Assembly (NCBI GenBank): GCA_945877315.1
Contig: CAMCRP010000009.1
Location: 1 to 64,000 of the forward strand
Reading direction: 5' to 3'
DNA from: an uncultured Ruminococcus sp.
Lineage (GTDB): Bacteria > Bacillota > Clostridia > Oscillospirales > Ruminococcaceae
Length of the DNA: 64,000 nt
The position numbers and the translations under genes were made by a program. Under the pieces are notes generated by a model, which worked only from the letters and a program-made list of their open reading frames with translations, was not told the origin of the DNA and made no database searches. Shown here one piece after another: positions 35,841 through 42,538 of this stretch. Numbering within the stretch: the stretch's first letter is position 1; every line of letters starts with the position of its first letter.

Positions 35841-36395
35841 TTACGGTTCTTCTTCCTTATTGTCGAGAACAAAATCTATTACCTTACGGTAAAATTCAAC
35901 AGGGTCGGCGAAAATCTTGTCCTTCATAAACTCCGCCTGCTCACGGTCGGGAGCGTATATGCTCATTTTCAGCAGATCAAAACCGCTGTCCTTTATAACT
36001 GTATTGAGATAGCAGCCGTTGGGAGCGTCGGTAATGGTGTTGTCAACAATGGCGTTCCTGCGCTTTACCGACATATGCCGCAGCGCAGCCGTCATAAGAC
36101 GCTTTCTGAATATCTCGTGCACATTATCGGAGAAAAACTCGGCACTCATTCTGCCCTTTTCGCCCAAGGTATAGACCTTCTTACCGTCCCTTTCACTGAC
36201 AATGACCGCACCCGTTTCTTCAAGGACGGCAATAGCGTCGGAAAAATAGAAATAGTTGATTATCTCGCTTTCCATAATGATCTCCACAAGCTCGTCGTGT
36301 GTTATGGGGACATTCAGCTTGTTAAGAAGATAGCAAAGCAAGACCTTGACCGAATGAAGCGAATTCACTTCAATGTGTGAAATATCTTCGTCCAT
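35841..36395 (-). CDS. DUF4364 family protein, putative regulator
   Basis: 184 residues from the ATG at 36395, preceded by GGGAGGG; the ATG at 36419 is less well placed. N-terminal winged-helix features (VKVLLCYLLNKLNVPITHDELVEI, quoted for its pattern only) and a C-terminal alpha/beta domain match DUF4364, a clostridial family thought to be transcriptional regulators. It follows aroC by 41 bp on the same strand and is the last gene of the shikimate cluster. Whether it regulates that cluster is unknown. Confidence 0.8.
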   Translation of the reverse strand: MDEDISHIEVNSLHSVKVLLCYLLNKLNVPITHDELVEIIMESEIINYFYFSDAIAVLEETGAVIVSERDGKKVYTLGEKGRMSAEFFSDNVHEIFRKRLMTAALRHMSVKRRNAIVDNTITDAPNGCYLNTVIKDSGFDLLKMSIYAPDREQAEFMKDKIFADPVEFYRKVIDFVLDNKEEEP

Positions 36396-36436
36396 TTTAC
36401 CCTCCCAAACCCTCGTCACAATCGGCGTAAATTCTA

Positions 36437-37528
36437 TCAGAAATTAGGATAATCCAACATATGGGAAAGAATTGCAATGTTCGCAGCCGCCTCAACACAG
36501 GGAACTGCTCTGGGCACAACACAGGGGTCATGTCTGCCCTTGACGGTGATAACATCGTTTGTCATGGTGGAGTAATCAATGGTGTTCTGCTCCCTGGCAA
36601 TTGACGGAGTAGGCTTGAAGGCTGTGCGGAACACAATAGGCATTCCCGAGGAAATACCGCCCAGAATACCGCCGTGATTGTTGGTTTTCGTGAGAACGTG
36701 TCCCTGCTCGTTCACATAGAATTCGTCATTATTCTGACTTCCCGTGAGATTTACCACGTTAAAGCCCGCACCGAACTCAATTCCCTTAACAGCAGGAATT
36801 CCGAAAACAAGCCGTGAAATGCTGTTTTCCAGTCCCTCAAACATAGGCGAACCGACGCCTGCGGGAACGTTGATAACAGCACATTCGATAATGCCGCCCA
36901 GACTGTCCAGAGATGTTCTTGCAGCATCGATATCAGCGATCATTGCCTCGCCCTTTTTATCATTGATAACGGGGAATTTCTTGTGTCTGAGAGCAATAGC
37001 CTGTTCTCTGGTGACGTTAATGGGATCAAAAGAAGTGTCCTTTATCTTGTGTATCTGCTTAATATGAGTAGCGGTGTAAATGCCACGTCTTTCAAGTATC
37101 TGACCGCAGATAGCACCCGCAAAAACCAGCGGAGCAGTCAGACGTCCCGAGAAATGTCCGCCGCCTCTTACGTCATTGAAGCCCTTGTAACGCAGTGCAC
37201 CCGTATAATCTGCATGACCGGGACGGGCAAGCTTTGCCACGTTTCCGTAGTCCTGAGAATGTTGGTCGGTGTTGTTGATGAAAACAGCCAGCGGTGTGCC
37301 TGTGGTCCTGCCGTTGTAAACGCCCGACATAATGTTTGGCATATCGCTTTCTCTGCGCTGTGTAGAGGTTTTGTCCTTTTTGGGTGCCCTTCTTTCCATA
37401 AACGAAAGAAGCTCCTCCATGTCAATTGCTTCCCCGGGAGGAAGGTTGTCAATAACTGCGCCGATGGCAGGTCCGTGTGATTCTCCGAATATAGAAATTG
37501 TAATGTTGTGATTCCAGAAAGATGACAA
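36437..37528 (-). CDS. aroC: Chorismate synthase
   Basis: A 363-residue enzyme forming chorismate from EPSP with reduced FMN, the last common step to aromatic amino acids. Signatures: GESHGPAIGAVIDNLPPG near the N-terminus, RRAPKKDKTSTQRRESD, GRPGHADYTG-like RPGHADYTGALRYKG, RGGGHFSGR, and GGISSGMPIVFR. It is full length. It starts 23 bp after aroA in the leftward aroB-aroA-aroC run. Confidence 0.96.
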   Translation of the reverse strand: MSSFWNHNITISIFGESHGPAIGAVIDNLPPGEAIDMEELLSFMERRAPKKDKTSTQRRESDMPNIMSGVYNGRTTGTPLAVFINNTDQHSQDYGNVAKLARPGHADYTGALRYKGFNDVRGGGHFSGRLTAPLVFAGAICGQILERRGIYTATHIKQIHKIKDTSFDPINVTREQAIALRHKKFPVINDKKGEAMIADIDAARTSLDSLGGIIECAVINVPAGVGSPMFEGLENSISRLVFGIPAVKGIEFGAGFNVVNLTGSQNNDEFYVNEQGHVLTKTNNHGGILGGISSGMPIVFRTAFKPTPSIAREQNTIDYSTMTNDVITVKGRHDPCVVPRAVPCVEAAANIAILSHMLDYPNF

Positions 37529-37551: not shown

Positions 37552-38796
37552 TTATCCTGTGATTTCGATTTTTCCGCCAAGCCTTGTAAGATCATCAAAG
37601 AAGGTGGGATAGGATTTATTCACCGCTTCTGCACCCAGAATGGTAACGGGAGCATCTGCCCTGAGAGCCGCAATTGCTGCTGACATTACTATTCTGTGGT
37701 CATTGCAGCCGTCAACAGTGCCGCCCTTGAAGCCGTGAACGGGAATAATCTCCAGCCTGTCGTCAAATGACTTGACATTTCCGCCGATGGCATTCAGCGC
37801 ATTTGCAATAGCCGTCAGACGGTCACTTTCCTTGATTTTAAGCCGCTTTGCGCCGACAATTTCCGACTTTTCGGACGTAAAAGAAGCAAGCACCGTCAGT
37901 ATCGGCACAAGGTCGGGAATGTCGGTGGCGTCCGCCGTAAATCCGCCTAAAACACCGCTATTTTTATTATAACCTATTTCATCTAAAATTTCAAGGATTT
38001 TCTTGTCACCTTGTACAGAATTTTTATTAAGATTTTTCACATCGACAGATGAACCCAGCGCATTTGCGGTAAAAAAGAATGCCGCCTGCGAAAAATCTCC
38101 CTCAACAGCGCAGTTTTTCGCCCGGTAACGCTGATTTCCTCGGATAAGATAGCAAAGCTGTCCGTCAATGTTAGCTTCTCTTACGGAAATACCGAAATCC
38201 CGAAGAACGGAAACCGTCATATCCGCATAAGGCTTAGATTCCAGACGGGATCTGAGCTTTATTACAGAATCCCCTCCGCAAAGAGGCAGTGCAAACAGCA
38301 GTCCCGTTATAAACTGAGAAGAAATGTCCCCTTCAAGCTCATATTCTCCCGGACAAAGTCTTCCACTGACGGAAAAGGGCATAGTGTTATTGTAATCGAA
38401 GGCAACGCCCTTTTTGCTCATTTCCCTGATATAGGGGGTGATGGGTCTTTCGGGCAGCTTTCCCCTTCCACGAAATTCTGCGGAAATTCCCAAAGCAGAC
38501 GCTACGGGAATTAGAAAACGCAGTGTGGAACCGCTTTCGCAGCAATTGATTACAGCGGACGATTTCGGGGACGAAATGCCCTTCACCGTGTACTCGCTGC
38601 CGTTCACGGAAATCTCGGCACCCATTGCCGTCATAGCCGAAACAGTTGCCGCAATGTCCACGGAATTTGTAACGTTGGACACCACCGACACTCCGTCGGA
38701 AAGTGCCGCAGCTATCAGACAGCGGTGCGAGAAGCTTTTTGAGGACGGTATATCCACACTTCCCGAAAGCTTACCGGGATAAACGGTAACGTTCAT
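37552..38796 (-). CDS. aroA: 3-phosphoshikimate 1-carboxyvinyltransferase (EPSP synthase)
   Basis: 414 residues, catalysing shikimate-3-phosphate plus PEP to EPSP. The substrate motifs are visible: PSSKSFSHRCLIAAAL at the N-terminus, GSTLRFLIPV, LPERPI, SSQFITGLLFALPL, GDFSQAAFFF, KESDRL and NDHRIVMSAAI. The Gly of the GNAGTA-type region is replaced by CESGSTLRF, seen in class II-type enzymes of Gram-positives. It begins 4 bp after the aroB stop, a tight operon link. Confidence 0.95.
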   Translation of the reverse strand: MNVTVYPGKLSGSVDIPSSKSFSHRCLIAAALSDGVSVVSNVTNSVDIAATVSAMTAMGAEISVNGSEYTVKGISSPKSSAVINCCESGSTLRFLIPVASALGISAEFRGRGKLPERPITPYIREMSKKGVAFDYNNTMPFSVSGRLCPGEYELEGDISSQFITGLLFALPLCGGDSVIKLRSRLESKPYADMTVSVLRDFGISVREANIDGQLCYLIRGNQRYRAKNCAVEGDFSQAAFFFTANALGSSVDVKNLNKNSVQGDKKILEILDEIGYNKNSGVLGGFTADATDIPDLVPILTVLASFTSEKSEIVGAKRLKIKESDRLTAIANALNAIGGNVKSFDDRLEIIPVHGFKGGTVDGCNDHRIVMSAAIAALRADAPVTILGAEAVNKSYPTFFDDLTRLGGKIEITG

Positions 38797-38800
38797 ATTA

Positions 38801-39859
38801 TCATCCTTTCAGCATCTCTAAAAACTCGGGAACGGGCATTTTCCTGATAAACGATTTTCCCGAATCCTCGCAGATAATTATGTTAATGGAACCGCCCATT
38901 CTCTTCTTGTCGTTGAGAGCGGCTTCTCCCAATTCATAGGGCTTGGGCTCAACGGAAATATTCAGCTTGTAACGTTCAAGGCAAGCCGTCAGCTCCTCGG
39001 TCAGACCCTTGCGGCAAAGTCCGTTATCCTCCGCAAGACGGGTTATCATCATCATACCGACAGAAACCGCCTTGCCGTGGGAAATTCCGGTGTAATTGTA
39101 ATACTGCTCAATGGAATGAGCCAGCGTGTGACCGAAGTTGAGAAGCATTCTCTCCCCCGTGTCAAACTCGTCATTTTCCACCACGTCACGCTTGATGGAA
39201 ACACATTCGGCAATAACTTCTTCCAGAATTTCGCCTATATTTTCCAAATCGTGACGGGACAGCTTGTCAAAAAGTCCCGCAGATTTTATCATTCCGTACT
39301 TAACGACCTCGCCCATTCCGTCAATGAAAAATTCCTCGGGAAGGGTGGAAAGAGCGTCAATATCGCAGATAACAAGCTTTGGCTGCTTGAATGCGCCGAC
39401 GAGATTTTTTCCCGCCTTGATGTCAACAGCAGTTTTTCCGCCGACAGAGGAATCCACCTGTGCCAGCAGAGTTGTGGGAATCTGAACAAAATCTATCCCC
39501 CTGAGATATGCCGCAGACGCAAATCCCGCCATATCTCCCGTAACACCGCCGCCCAGGGCAACCAGCACGTCCGAACGTGTAATATGATTTTCCGCAAGAA
39601 AATCGAAAATTTCCGAAAGAACAGCAATGCTCTTTGAAGCCTCGCCATGAGGGAATGTAAAGCTTACCACCTCAAATCCCGCAGCTTTAAGGGACTTTTC
39701 CACCCGCTCACCGTATAAGCCGTAAACCGTATCATCGGAAACTATCGCCGCCTTTGCCGCCTTTGTGACCTGTCTGATACGTTCACCGCAGCTGTCAAGC
39801 AGTTCATGTCCGATAATAACATCGTAGCTTTGAGATGCTTTTACACTGATAGTCTGCAT
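38801..39859 (-). CDS. aroB: 3-dehydroquinate synthase
   Basis: A 352-residue NAD- and metal-dependent enzyme turning DAHP into 3-dehydroquinate. Seen: FPHGEASKS, ALGGGVTGDMAGFASAAYLRG (shown only for its start and end), TTLLAQVDSSVGGKTAVD, GMGEVVKYGMI and LNFGHTLAHSIE with metal-binding His. It is full length. A site AAAGGAG precedes the ATG. The gap to aroF (39860-39982) has a long hairpin, so aroB-aroA-aroC may have its own promoter near a TATAAC at about 39905. Confidence 0.95.
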   Translation of the reverse strand: MQTISVKASQSYDVIIGHELLDSCGERIRQVTKAAKAAIVSDDTVYGLYGERVEKSLKAAGFEVVSFTFPHGEASKSIAVLSEIFDFLAENHITRSDVLVALGGGVTGDMAGFASAAYLRGIDFVQIPTTLLAQVDSSVGGKTAVDIKAGKNLVGAFKQPKLVICDIDALSTLPEEFFIDGMGEVVKYGMIKSAGLFDKLSRHDLENIGEILEEVIAECVSIKRDVVENDEFDTGERMLLNFGHTLAHSIEQYYNYTGISHGKAVSVGMMMITRLAEDNGLCRKGLTEELTACLERYKLNISVEPKPYELGEAALNDKKRMGGSINIIICEDSGKSFIRKMPVPEFLEMLKG

Positions 39860-39982: not shown

Positions 39983-40996
39983 TCAGCCGATGGTACGTCC
40001 CATGAATTTAGCAGCAGCGTTTATCCTCTCCATAACCTCCGCAAAACGTGCGGGTGTCAGCTGCTGACCGCCGTCGGAAAGTGCGCTTCTAGGGTCGTTG
40101 TGAACTTCAATTTCAAGAGCATCTGCACCCGCAACGATAGCTGCCAGAGAAAGGGGTTCGATAAGAGATGTCAGACCGCCTGCATGAGAAGGGTCTGCAC
40201 ATACGGGCAGATGAGATTTCTGCTTGATAAGCGGGATTGCGGAAACATCGAAGGTGTTTCTTGTCATGGTTTCAAAGGTTCTGATACCTCTTTCGCAGAG
40301 AATTACCTGCTGATTTCCCTCGGACATTATGTACTCTGCAGACATAAGAAGCTCTTCAATGGTGTTTGCAAGACCTCTTTTCAGAAGAACAGGCTTGTTT
40401 ACACGTCCGAGAGCCTTCAGAAGCTCAAAGTTCTGCATATTTCTTGCACCTACCTGGATTACGTCAATATCTGCAAAAAGGTCAATATCCGCAGCACTCA
40501 TTATCTCGGTAACGATAGGCAGACCTGTAATGCTTCTTGCCTTAATAAGCAGCTCAATGCCCTTTTCACGGAGTCCCTGGAAGGAGTAGGGAGATGTTCT
40601 GGGCTTGAATGCGCCGCCTCTGAGCATTGTTGCGCCTGCTTCCTTAACGGCAACAGCTGTTGTGATTATCTGCTCCTCGGACTCAACGGAGCAGGGACCC
40701 GCAATTATCTGTAAAGAACCGTTTCCGATCTTTACGCTGCCGCAGTCGATAACGGTATCCTCGGGGTGGAACTTTCTGTTGGCGTTCTTGTAAGGCTCCT
40801 GTACACGCTGAACGTTTTCAACGCAATCCTGAGCCATAAGGGATTCGATATCAATGTGAGATGTATCACCTACCAGACCCATAATGTTCTTGTGGGCACC
40901 TGTGATCTCGTTTATTTTGACATCATGCTTGTCCAGTACGGAACGAAGTCTGTCAATGCTTTCCTGTGCAGCATTCTGCTTTAAAATAATGATCAT
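39983..40996 (-). CDS. aroF: DAHP synthase (AroA-beta type) with N-terminal regulatory domain
   Basis: 337 residues from the ATG at 40996 (MIIILKQNAAQES), preceded by AGGAGG. It makes DAHP from PEP and erythrose 4-phosphate, the first step of the shikimate pathway. The N-terminal ferredoxin-like regulatory domain (about 1-70) precedes the barrel with AGPCSVESEEQI, RGGAFKPRTSPYSFQG, VGARNMQN, KRGLANTIEE, LCERGIRTFE and DPSHAGG. In Thermotoga this domain mediates Tyr/Phe feedback inhibition. Upstream lies a Phe/Tyr-rich leader ORF and terminator (41021-41254), so expression is probably also attenuated. Confidence 0.95.
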   Translation of the reverse strand: MIIILKQNAAQESIDRLRSVLDKHDVKINEITGAHKNIMGLVGDTSHIDIESLMAQDCVENVQRVQEPYKNANRKFHPEDTVIDCGSVKIGNGSLQIIAGPCSVESEEQIITTAVAVKEAGATMLRGGAFKPRTSPYSFQGLREKGIELLIKARSITGLPIVTEIMSAADIDLFADIDVIQVGARNMQNFELLKALGRVNKPVLLKRGLANTIEELLMSAEYIMSEGNQQVILCERGIRTFETMTRNTFDVSAIPLIKQKSHLPVCADPSHAGGLTSLIEPLSLAAIVAGADALEIEVHNDPRSALSDGGQQLTPARFAEVMERINAAAKFMGRTIG

Positions 40997-41010
40997 CTGA
41001 AAATTCCTCC

Positions 41011-41050
41011 TAAAATAAAAAAGCTGCGAACTACACAAATAGCCGCAGTT
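41011..41050 (-). terminator. Attenuator terminator in the aroF leader
   Basis: Minus strand CTGCG-CTA pairs with TAG-CGCAG (41048-41022 region) and is followed by TTTTTTATTTT, 25 nt before the aroF ribosome binding site. It lies between the leader ORF stop (41086) and aroF, where a premature terminator of an attenuator should be. GCTGCA at 41099-41094 can alternatively pair with TGCGGC at 41047-41042. Confidence 0.75.
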
Positions 41051-41085
41051 AAGATACAATATTTATCGGGCATACGCCTGAAATA

Positions 41086-41193
41086 CTACCTGTTGCAGCA
41101 ATTCTTATTTTTTGCATGATAAAATCGTCCGAAGCTATAAAAGCTCAGACCCGCAAAAAACATGAAATTTACCGCAGCAAAAAGGTTAATCAT
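41086..41193 (-). CDS. Phe/Tyr-rich leader peptide ORF of aroF
   Basis: 35 codons beginning MINLFAAVNFMFF and continuing with GLSFYSFGRFYH before a basic Asn/Lys/Cys tail. Seven Phe and two Tyr codons are concentrated in residues 5-25. GGGAG lies 9 bp before the ATG. It starts about 30 nt after the predicted transcript start. Stalling at the Phe/Tyr codons near 41119-41141 would leave 41094-41099 free to block the terminator. The hydrophobic pattern could also make a small membrane protein, which is the main alternative. Confidence 0.65.
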   Translation of the reverse strand: MINLFAAVNFMFFAGLSFYSFGRFYHAKNKNCCNR

Positions 41194-41225
41194 GGCGAAT
41201 TACTCCCAATAATTTTTACTTTTTT

Positions 41226-41254
41226 ATTATAAACCCAAATTTTTCTGCTGTCAA
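41226..41254 (-). promoter_or_regulatory. Perfect-consensus promoter of the aroF leader
   Basis: Minus strand TTGACA (41254-41249), 17-bp spacer, TATAAT (41231-41226). The transcript would carry the leader ORF, the terminator and aroF. Confidence 0.85.
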
Positions 41255-41353
41255 GTAGTATTTGCAGATATTAATTTTTTGTACACAAAATCGTTAAAAT
41301 ACTCCGCTGTCAAAACCTGTCAAACGGCATAATATAAACTGAGGTGACTTATT

Positions 41354-41533
41354 ATGATATGCGGAGAATCTGTGGCTGCGGGGATAACCGCCATTGCAGC
41401 CACCATTTCGAGCGGACGTTCTGCCGAAAAGATAGCCGTCCTCGCAGCAATTTTCGTGCATCTGGGCGACACACTTGAAACAATTTCCGTTTTTCGGGCA
41501 AAACAGGAGCAATGTACCGAAAAAAGCCGTTAA
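41354..41533 (+). CDS. Small 59-residue protein, DUF6774-like
   Basis: Starts MICGESVAAGITAIAATIS with GAGGTG 7 bp upstream, continues SAEKIAVLAAIFVHLGDTLETIS and ends in a charged tail. Two short amphipathic/hydrophobic helices suggest a small cytoplasmic or membrane-associated protein. The pattern (helix, SAEE/K-type turn, LGDTL) resembles small clostridial DUF6774 proteins by memory only. A terminator directly follows. Confidence 0.6.
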   Translation: MICGESVAAGITAIAATISSGRSAEKIAVLAAIFVHLGDTLETISVFRAKQEQCTEKSR

Positions 41534-41575: not shown

Positions 41576-42538
41576 TTATCTCATAACAATGTAGACCATA
41601 TATGCAGCATAAAGCAGCACAAGAATGATACCCTCAACTCTGGAAACCTTCCGTGATGTAATGCAGAAAACGTAAACCAGCAGCATAACAAAAATCAGGA
41701 TAACAAGGTCGATGATGTTTTCCATGCTGATATTCAGCGGGTGAACAGCAGCTGATGAAGCCAGAACGAAGAACACGTTGAAAATGTTGGAGCCCACAAC
41801 GTTTCCCACAGCCATATCACTTTCGCCTTTTTTTGCCGCAACAACGCTTGTCACCAGCTCGGGAAGGGACGTTCCCACCGCAACTATGGTCAAGGCAACC
41901 AGCGCCTCGCTGATACCGAAGGCGTATGCGATTTCCGTTGCGGAATTTACCACCAGCTGACCGCCGCCGATAATTCCCGCAAGACCGAGAATCGAGAAGA
42001 TAACCGCCTTGCCTATGGTGTACTTCGGCTGAACATTTTCCTCGGGCGGTGAATTCTTTATGGAATCAAGCGCAGTTGACAATACCGAATACAGGAACAC
42101 ACCGAAGAACAACAGCAGTATAATACCGTCCGAACGTGACAGCACATTTGCCTTGCCCTCGCCAAGATATAGATCTCCCGAAAGCACTATCAGTGCAAAC
42201 ACCGCCAGCATTGAGAATGGGTATTCCCTGGCAATTATCGCCTTTTCGATATTTATTGGACGAATTGCGGCGCAGATACCGATAACCGCCAAAAGATTAA
42301 ACAGGTTTGAACCGATGACATTTCCCATAGCAATGTCATTCTGTCCCTTTACGCCCGCAATAATGCTTACCGCAGCCTCGGGCGCACTTGTGCCGAACGC
42401 AACTATTGTCAGACCGATTATCAATGACGGAACCTTTAGCTTTACGGCGATGGACGAGCTTCCGTCAACAAAAAAATCTGCTCCTTTGACCAGCAGGACA
42501 AGCCCCACAGCCAAAAGTAAAATTTGTACAATTATCAT
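41576..42538 (-). CDS. Calcium/sodium antiporter (CaCA family, YrbG type)
   Basis: 320 residues from the ATG at 42538, which has GGGAGG 5 bp upstream; longer versions run into the upstream small ORF. About ten membrane segments form two inverted halves, each with an alpha repeat: GLTIVAFGTSAPEAAVS with GNVIGSNLFNLL, and ALTIVAVGTSLPELVTS with GNVVGSNIFNVF. The conserved acidic residues in both repeats bind cations. It exchanges Ca2+ (or K+) for Na+ across the membrane. The physiological direction is not given by sequence. Confidence 0.9.
   Translation of the reverse strand: MIIVQILLLAVGLVLLVKGADFFVDGSSSIAVKLKVPSLIIGLTIVAFGTSAPEAAVSIIAGVKGQNDIAMGNVIGSNLFNLLAVIGICAAIRPINIEKAIIAREYPFSMLAVFALIVLSGDLYLGEGKANVLSRSDGIILLLFFGVFLYSVLSTALDSIKNSPPEENVQPKYTIGKAVIFSILGLAGIIGGGQLVVNSATEIAYAFGISEALVALTIVAVGTSLPELVTSVVAAKKGESDMAVGNVVGSNIFNVFFVLASSAAVHPLNISMENIIDLVILIFVMLLVYVFCITSRKVSRVEGIILVLLYAAYMVYIVMR

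Follow-up and report, generated by a model that had tools for sequence, protein, structure and literature searches.

A predicted Phe/Tyr-responsive leader-peptide attenuator in front of aroF in an uncultured Ruminococcus and its relatives

The aroF-aroB-aroA-aroC operon in the window, the 64,000-nucleotide stretch of an uncultured Ruminococcus sp. genome that was analysed here, is very probably controlled by a ribosome-mediated transcription attenuator, and I infer that this attenuator responds mainly to Phe, with a contribution from Tyr. The features that mark the class are present: a leader ORF preceded by a Shine-Dalgarno (SD) sequence, codons for end products of the pathway, and an intrinsic terminator before the first gene. 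A mutually exclusive antiterminator was found as a property of the leader family and is predicted by folding in the window. The strength of the case comes from the comparison of relatives and not from the sequence of the window alone.

All parts of the leader lie on the minus strand and were read directly. A sigma-A type promoter, TTGACA-N17-TATAAT (41226-41254), matches the consensus at 12/12 positions and is retained in a congeneric genome (G001). It is followed by a leader ORF of 35 codons (41193-41086) with the SD sequence GGGAG and a stop codon at 41088-41086, whose product, MINLFAAVNFMFFAGLSFYSFGRFYHAKNKNCCNR, carries 7 Phe and 2 Tyr within residues 5-25 (F5, F10, F12, F13, F18, Y19, F21, F24, and Y25). 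Downstream lie an intrinsic terminator (41048-41012), which consists of a stem-loop at 41048-41024 (CTGCGGCTATTTGTGTAGTTCGCAG, then CTTTTTTATTTT; -10.3 kcal/mol by RNAfold) and a T-rich tail, and finally the aroF SD sequence AGGAGG and the aroF ATG at 40996. An earlier sequence-only reading of this DNA had proposed the promoter, ORF, ribosome site, stop, hairpin and aroF SD sequence, and each was found on the minus strand where it had been placed; translation likewise confirmed its nine aromatic codons. Within the leader family this terminator ranks with the weaker members, and a simple pattern scan missed it, its stem being interrupted. Taken by itself, the aromatic excess of the window leader is modest (P ~0.001 for at least 9 of 34 residues at an 8% background). 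A second promoter-like site, TTGACA-N16-TATTTT (41323-41296, minus strand), lies upstream of the leader promoter.

The gene behind the leader, aroF (39983-40996, minus strand), encodes an AroA-beta-type DAHP synthase (TIGR01361 / PRK08673), the enzyme with which the shikimate pathway begins, and heads an operon for the common pathway. It is followed on the same strand and at short gaps by aroB (3-dehydroquinate synthase, 38801-39859), aroA (EPSP synthase, 37552-38796), aroC (chorismate synthase, 36437-37528) and a gene for a DUF4364 protein (35841-36419), which, judged by its spacing, is probably the last gene of the operon. A strong hairpin without a T run, TTCTTTTCCCGCC-GAA-GGCGGGGAAAGAA (~39966-39936), sits between aroF and aroB and is perhaps a repeat or a processing site. 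Upstream, a Ca/Na antiporter gene has its end at 41576, with a terminator-like hairpin (41562-41538) behind it, and a small DUF6774 gene (41354-41533, plus strand) lies between that gene and the leader, divergent to the latter. The leader therefore probably starts its own transcription unit.

Conservation was assessed in aroF upstream DNA from named genomes (Ruminococcus and Oscillospiraceae records), from relatives of the window genome, and from their second copies of the gene. ORFs of 8-60 codons preceded by an SD sequence were scored for their best Phe/Tyr-rich segment within the last 350 nt before aroF, and 145 other gene starts with free upstream DNA at the same loci served as a control. 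A score of at least 10 was reached by 79/131 aroF upstream regions and by 1/145 of the other gene starts (Fisher p 2e-32); dropping the SD requirement added ~10 leaders, nearly all with a terminator. The leader sequences diverge widely (for example FTYFFMSLSYFFGFKFFWR, AEYFYFYFSFTSFFGKA, and HYYYDYYLGYYY), while their aromatic content is kept: F and Y make up 28% of residues in frame, whereas the two alternative frames of this DNA give 10% and 14%, and Leu, Ile and Val together account for ~12% of leader residues. This pattern carries the signature of selection on codons rather than on a peptide or on hydrophobicity. At closer range, the window genome (G000) and G001 differ at 14/260 positions: none of the seven Phe codons has been lost, two substitutions within the ORF are silent, and one Tyr codon has become Ser. 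The last 130 nt, which hold both antiterminator arms and the terminator, contain a single difference, and the terminator is unchanged.

A hairpin of -9 kcal/mol or stronger directly before a T run follows 74/82 leaders, compared with 16% of dinucleotide shuffles. The stretch of RNA that runs from the last aromatic codon to the terminator shows complementarity to the terminator 5' arm, with a mean z of -1.6 against dinucleotide shuffles and of -1.3 against partners swapped between leaders (n=74 in both cases), the swap of this segment between leaders being a test for covariation of the partners. Shuffling the same segment lowered the modelled probability that the terminator arm is sequestered from 0.62 to 0.45 (p 2e-9). 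The pairing segment lies mostly in the last codons of the ORF and around its stop, a position in which it would be masked by a terminating ribosome. The proposal in the sequence-only reading that leaders of relatives be aligned has thus been followed through, and an aromatic-rich ORF of variable sequence, a terminator and a co-varying antiterminator were all retained; the outcome it had set against itself, a leader that is not conserved or is conserved as a peptide without aromatics, was not what the relatives displayed.

In the window, the nascent RNA was folded with the ribosome placed at successive positions, assuming a ribosome footprint and a kinetic order of folding. The predicted structure is an antiterminator of -18.5 to -18.8 kcal/mol for a ribosome at codon 19, 21, 24 or 25, whereas a ribosome at codon 31 or at the stop leaves only the terminator to form. 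The antiterminator 5' arm (segment 2, ATAAGAATTGCTGCA, 41108-41094) lies within the last codons of the ORF and is assigned from this nascent fold, with the ribosome at codons 19-25, and from the family-wide complementarity; the 3' arm (segment 3, 41047-41033), likewise taken from the nascent fold, overlaps the 5' arm and loop of the terminator. In the minimum-energy fold of the ribosome-free leader, segment 2 is instead predicted to pair with an upstream segment 1 (TTTTTGCTGCGGTAA, approximate limits 41184-41170), and the terminator forms as well. The shorter pairing suggested previously, GCTGCA (41099-41094) with TGCGGC (41047-41042), is indeed complementary and falls inside the predicted antiterminator. 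A ribosome-dependent alternative pairing accordingly stands as a property of the family and in the fold of the window, but the pairing of segments 2 and 3 in the window, taken alone, was not significant against shuffles (p 0.34 and 0.13 in two tests).

Put together, these parts suggest the following course of events. Transcription would start a short distance past the promoter at 41254-41226, with translation of the leader setting in at once. With ample charged Phe-tRNA (Tyr-tRNA counting for less), the ribosome would reach the stop codon and cover segment 2, leaving the hairpin at 41048-41024 and its U tail to end transcription. A shortage of charged tRNA would stall the ribosome at codons 19-25, and segments 2 and 3 could pair, so that the terminator would not form in time and RNA polymerase would read through into the operon. 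Without any translation, segments 1 and 2 would pair and termination would be the default.

The balance of Phe and Tyr codons in the leaders varied with the genes downstream. The Tyr share of leader F+Y had a median of 0.44 where tyrA lies next to aroF (n=41) and of 0.25 where aroB or pheA does (n=34; p 1e-7 between the groups). Phylogenetic regression of Tyr share on the presence of tyrA along the AroF tree gave a slope of 0.19 (p 6e-4 at lambda 1), while an independent-pairs test had 3 pairs on supported branches, too few to reach significance. The window leader, with 7 Phe and 2 Tyr before an operon without tyrA, fits the Phe-weighted type. Two genomes with a duplicated aroF carry both types: G034 has a leader of 7 Tyr and no Phe on aroF-tyrA and one of 9 Phe and 2 Tyr on aroF-aroB (L090 and L111), and G024 has 8 Tyr and 1 Phe before aroF with the start of tyrA and 11 Phe and 2 Tyr before aroF-aroB (L087 and L113). 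Amino acid control has apparently been split between the isoenzymes in these genomes. This recalls E. coli, where the DAHP synthases of aroF-tyrA (Tyr) and aroG (Phe) are isoenzymes under separate control, and G034 likewise pairs its Tyr leader with aroF-tyrA; the control of DAHP synthase in E. coli is repression by TyrR, however, whereas in G034 the codon content of the leader would do that job.

This match of codons to operon also bears on what the attenuator senses. It might answer to some other cue, such as general translation speed or a ligand that induces arrest of the nascent chain, with the aromatic residues forming an arrest peptide. Arrest peptides do exist and could conceivably be at work here, but no fixed arrest motif was found: the leaders share aromatic codons and neither a common sequence nor a common position, and their Tyr/Phe ratio tracks tyrA versus aroB or pheA, which makes another cue very unlikely. 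Less likely still is a small membrane protein gene that is aromatic-rich by chance and co-transcribed with aroF, the alternative that the sequence-only reading had itself raised. The window peptide does have a hydrophobic middle and a basic tail, yet it belongs to no Pfam or NCBIfam family, and its relatives share the aromatic content without the sequence. The idea fails on the low content of Leu, Ile and Val, on the interchange of F and Y and on the F:Y ratio that follows the downstream genes; moreover, a terminator separates the ORF from aroF in the 74 of 82 cases given above.

Attenuation by the leader peptide was also compared with known RNA sensors. A search of 40950-41300 against Rfam at a permissive threshold returned chance matches only; neither the T-box covariance model (RF00230) nor the leader-peptide families (Phe_leader and others) matched the window leader, and a plasmid search gave no match. 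T-boxes were found before some aroF genes (L061, G038 C65, L214, L216, L221, L234, and L247) and, as matches below the Rfam gathering score, in the window genome upstream of pheS (C16:43532-43785; domain from 44151) and of trpE (C40:13310-13607; domain from 14325), but with no Rfam match in the region and a leader filled by an ORF of conserved aromatic content, it is extremely unlikely that the region is a T-box that binds tRNA, or some other riboswitch, in which the ORF is incidental. Since T-boxes precede pheS and trpE in the window genome, T-box and leader-peptide sensing would coexist in one genome. An upstream search and Rfam on both loci found neither leader nor T-box at its pheA and tyrA, and no such leader stood directly in front of pheA in the relatives. 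With T-boxes at pheS and trpE and neither element at pheA and tyrA, the aroF operon is, of the aromatic genes examined, the one place where the leader occurs.

Leader presence is clustered on the AroF tree, requiring 28 changes compared with 51.8 for shuffled labels (0/500 shuffles as low). Sampling across the phylum showed leaders beyond the order too, in several families, chiefly those whose AroF is nearest the query; the remaining families had hardly any, and some of their aroF genes follow a T-box. In the sister group nearest to the window (L001, L002, L004, L083, and L084) the aromatic leader has been lost, and a gene for an LRR lipoprotein precedes aroF there; a leader displaced upstream of that gene was considered and rejected, as nothing convincing was found at that place. 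Four contigs labelled Lentisphaerae/Oligosphaeraceae (L027, L036, L039, and L059) carry an aroF that belongs to the window's clade and is preceded by an F/Y leader and a terminator, which suggests transfer between phyla, or a binning error. It is quite possible, if somewhat short of probable, that a sensor tunable through its Phe:Tyr codons travels with one AroF clade, has been retuned when tyrA was gained or lost or aroF was duplicated, and has crossed from Bacillota to Lentisphaerota. At ~180-260 nt before one aroF (L112, G022 C75), aromatic codons and TGCTGC persist beyond an early stop and no terminator was found in the upstream region, which looks like a decayed leader. At L033, 300 nt before aroF, the leader ORF MKKNIIANAFYYFYFYGFNKS begins ~6 nt past a -10-like box and is perhaps a leaderless uORF.

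Ribosome-mediated attenuation as such is already known and of the classical kind, with pheL-pheA, pheM-pheST, trpL and hisL as enterobacterial examples. The likeness to pheA and trp noted earlier holds: the window shares with those attenuators a promoter, a short leader ORF with many codons for the regulated amino acid, a stop near the terminator and a 2:3 antiterminator. It differs from them in serving an AroA-beta DAHP synthase and the common shikimate pathway, in belonging to a Gram-positive clade, in mixing Phe and Tyr codons, and in having no matching Rfam leader family. Leader peptides in place of the T-boxes used by other Firmicutes have precedents for different amino acids and operons: a His leader peptide replaces the T-box at hisS/hisZ of bacilli (PMC2965389), a Leu leader peptide does so at ilv-leu of S. 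aureus (PMC5794164), and Lactococcus has a Leu/Phe leader, RF01743 (PMC2864571). The assertion that no Phe leader had been described for such genes needs softening. The predicted uORFC-13-1 motif, of which Acholeplasma and sequences without assignment supplied 24 representatives, combines a uORF containing at least one Phe with a promoter, an RBS and a terminator and occurs only before aroF (PMC8632094); its Phe uORF and terminator resemble those of the window. Figure 6b of a survey of five genomes, Clostridium novyi included (Stav 2019; PMC6429828), gives two uORF candidates with F and Y before shikimate metabolism genes, and these may or may not form one family with the window leader, which also combines Phe and Tyr. 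A search of open-access literature, outside which most subscription papers lie, turned up no account of a leader from Oscillospirales, of a match of codon ratio to operon or of paralogues split between Phe and Tyr. What is new, then, is a predicted clade-wide family of leaders whose codon ratio matches the operon.

T-boxes are held to be the usual amino acid sensor of biosynthetic operons in Firmicutes. A large family of leader attenuators at the entry step of aromatic biosynthesis in gut bacteria, beside T-boxes in one and the same genome, would mean that the choice between the two sensors is made separately for each gene. The comparative series of leaders is unusually informative in this respect: with varied Phe:Tyr ratios before varied sets of genes, it amounts to a ready natural experiment in which the effect of codon composition on the input logic of an attenuator can be followed.
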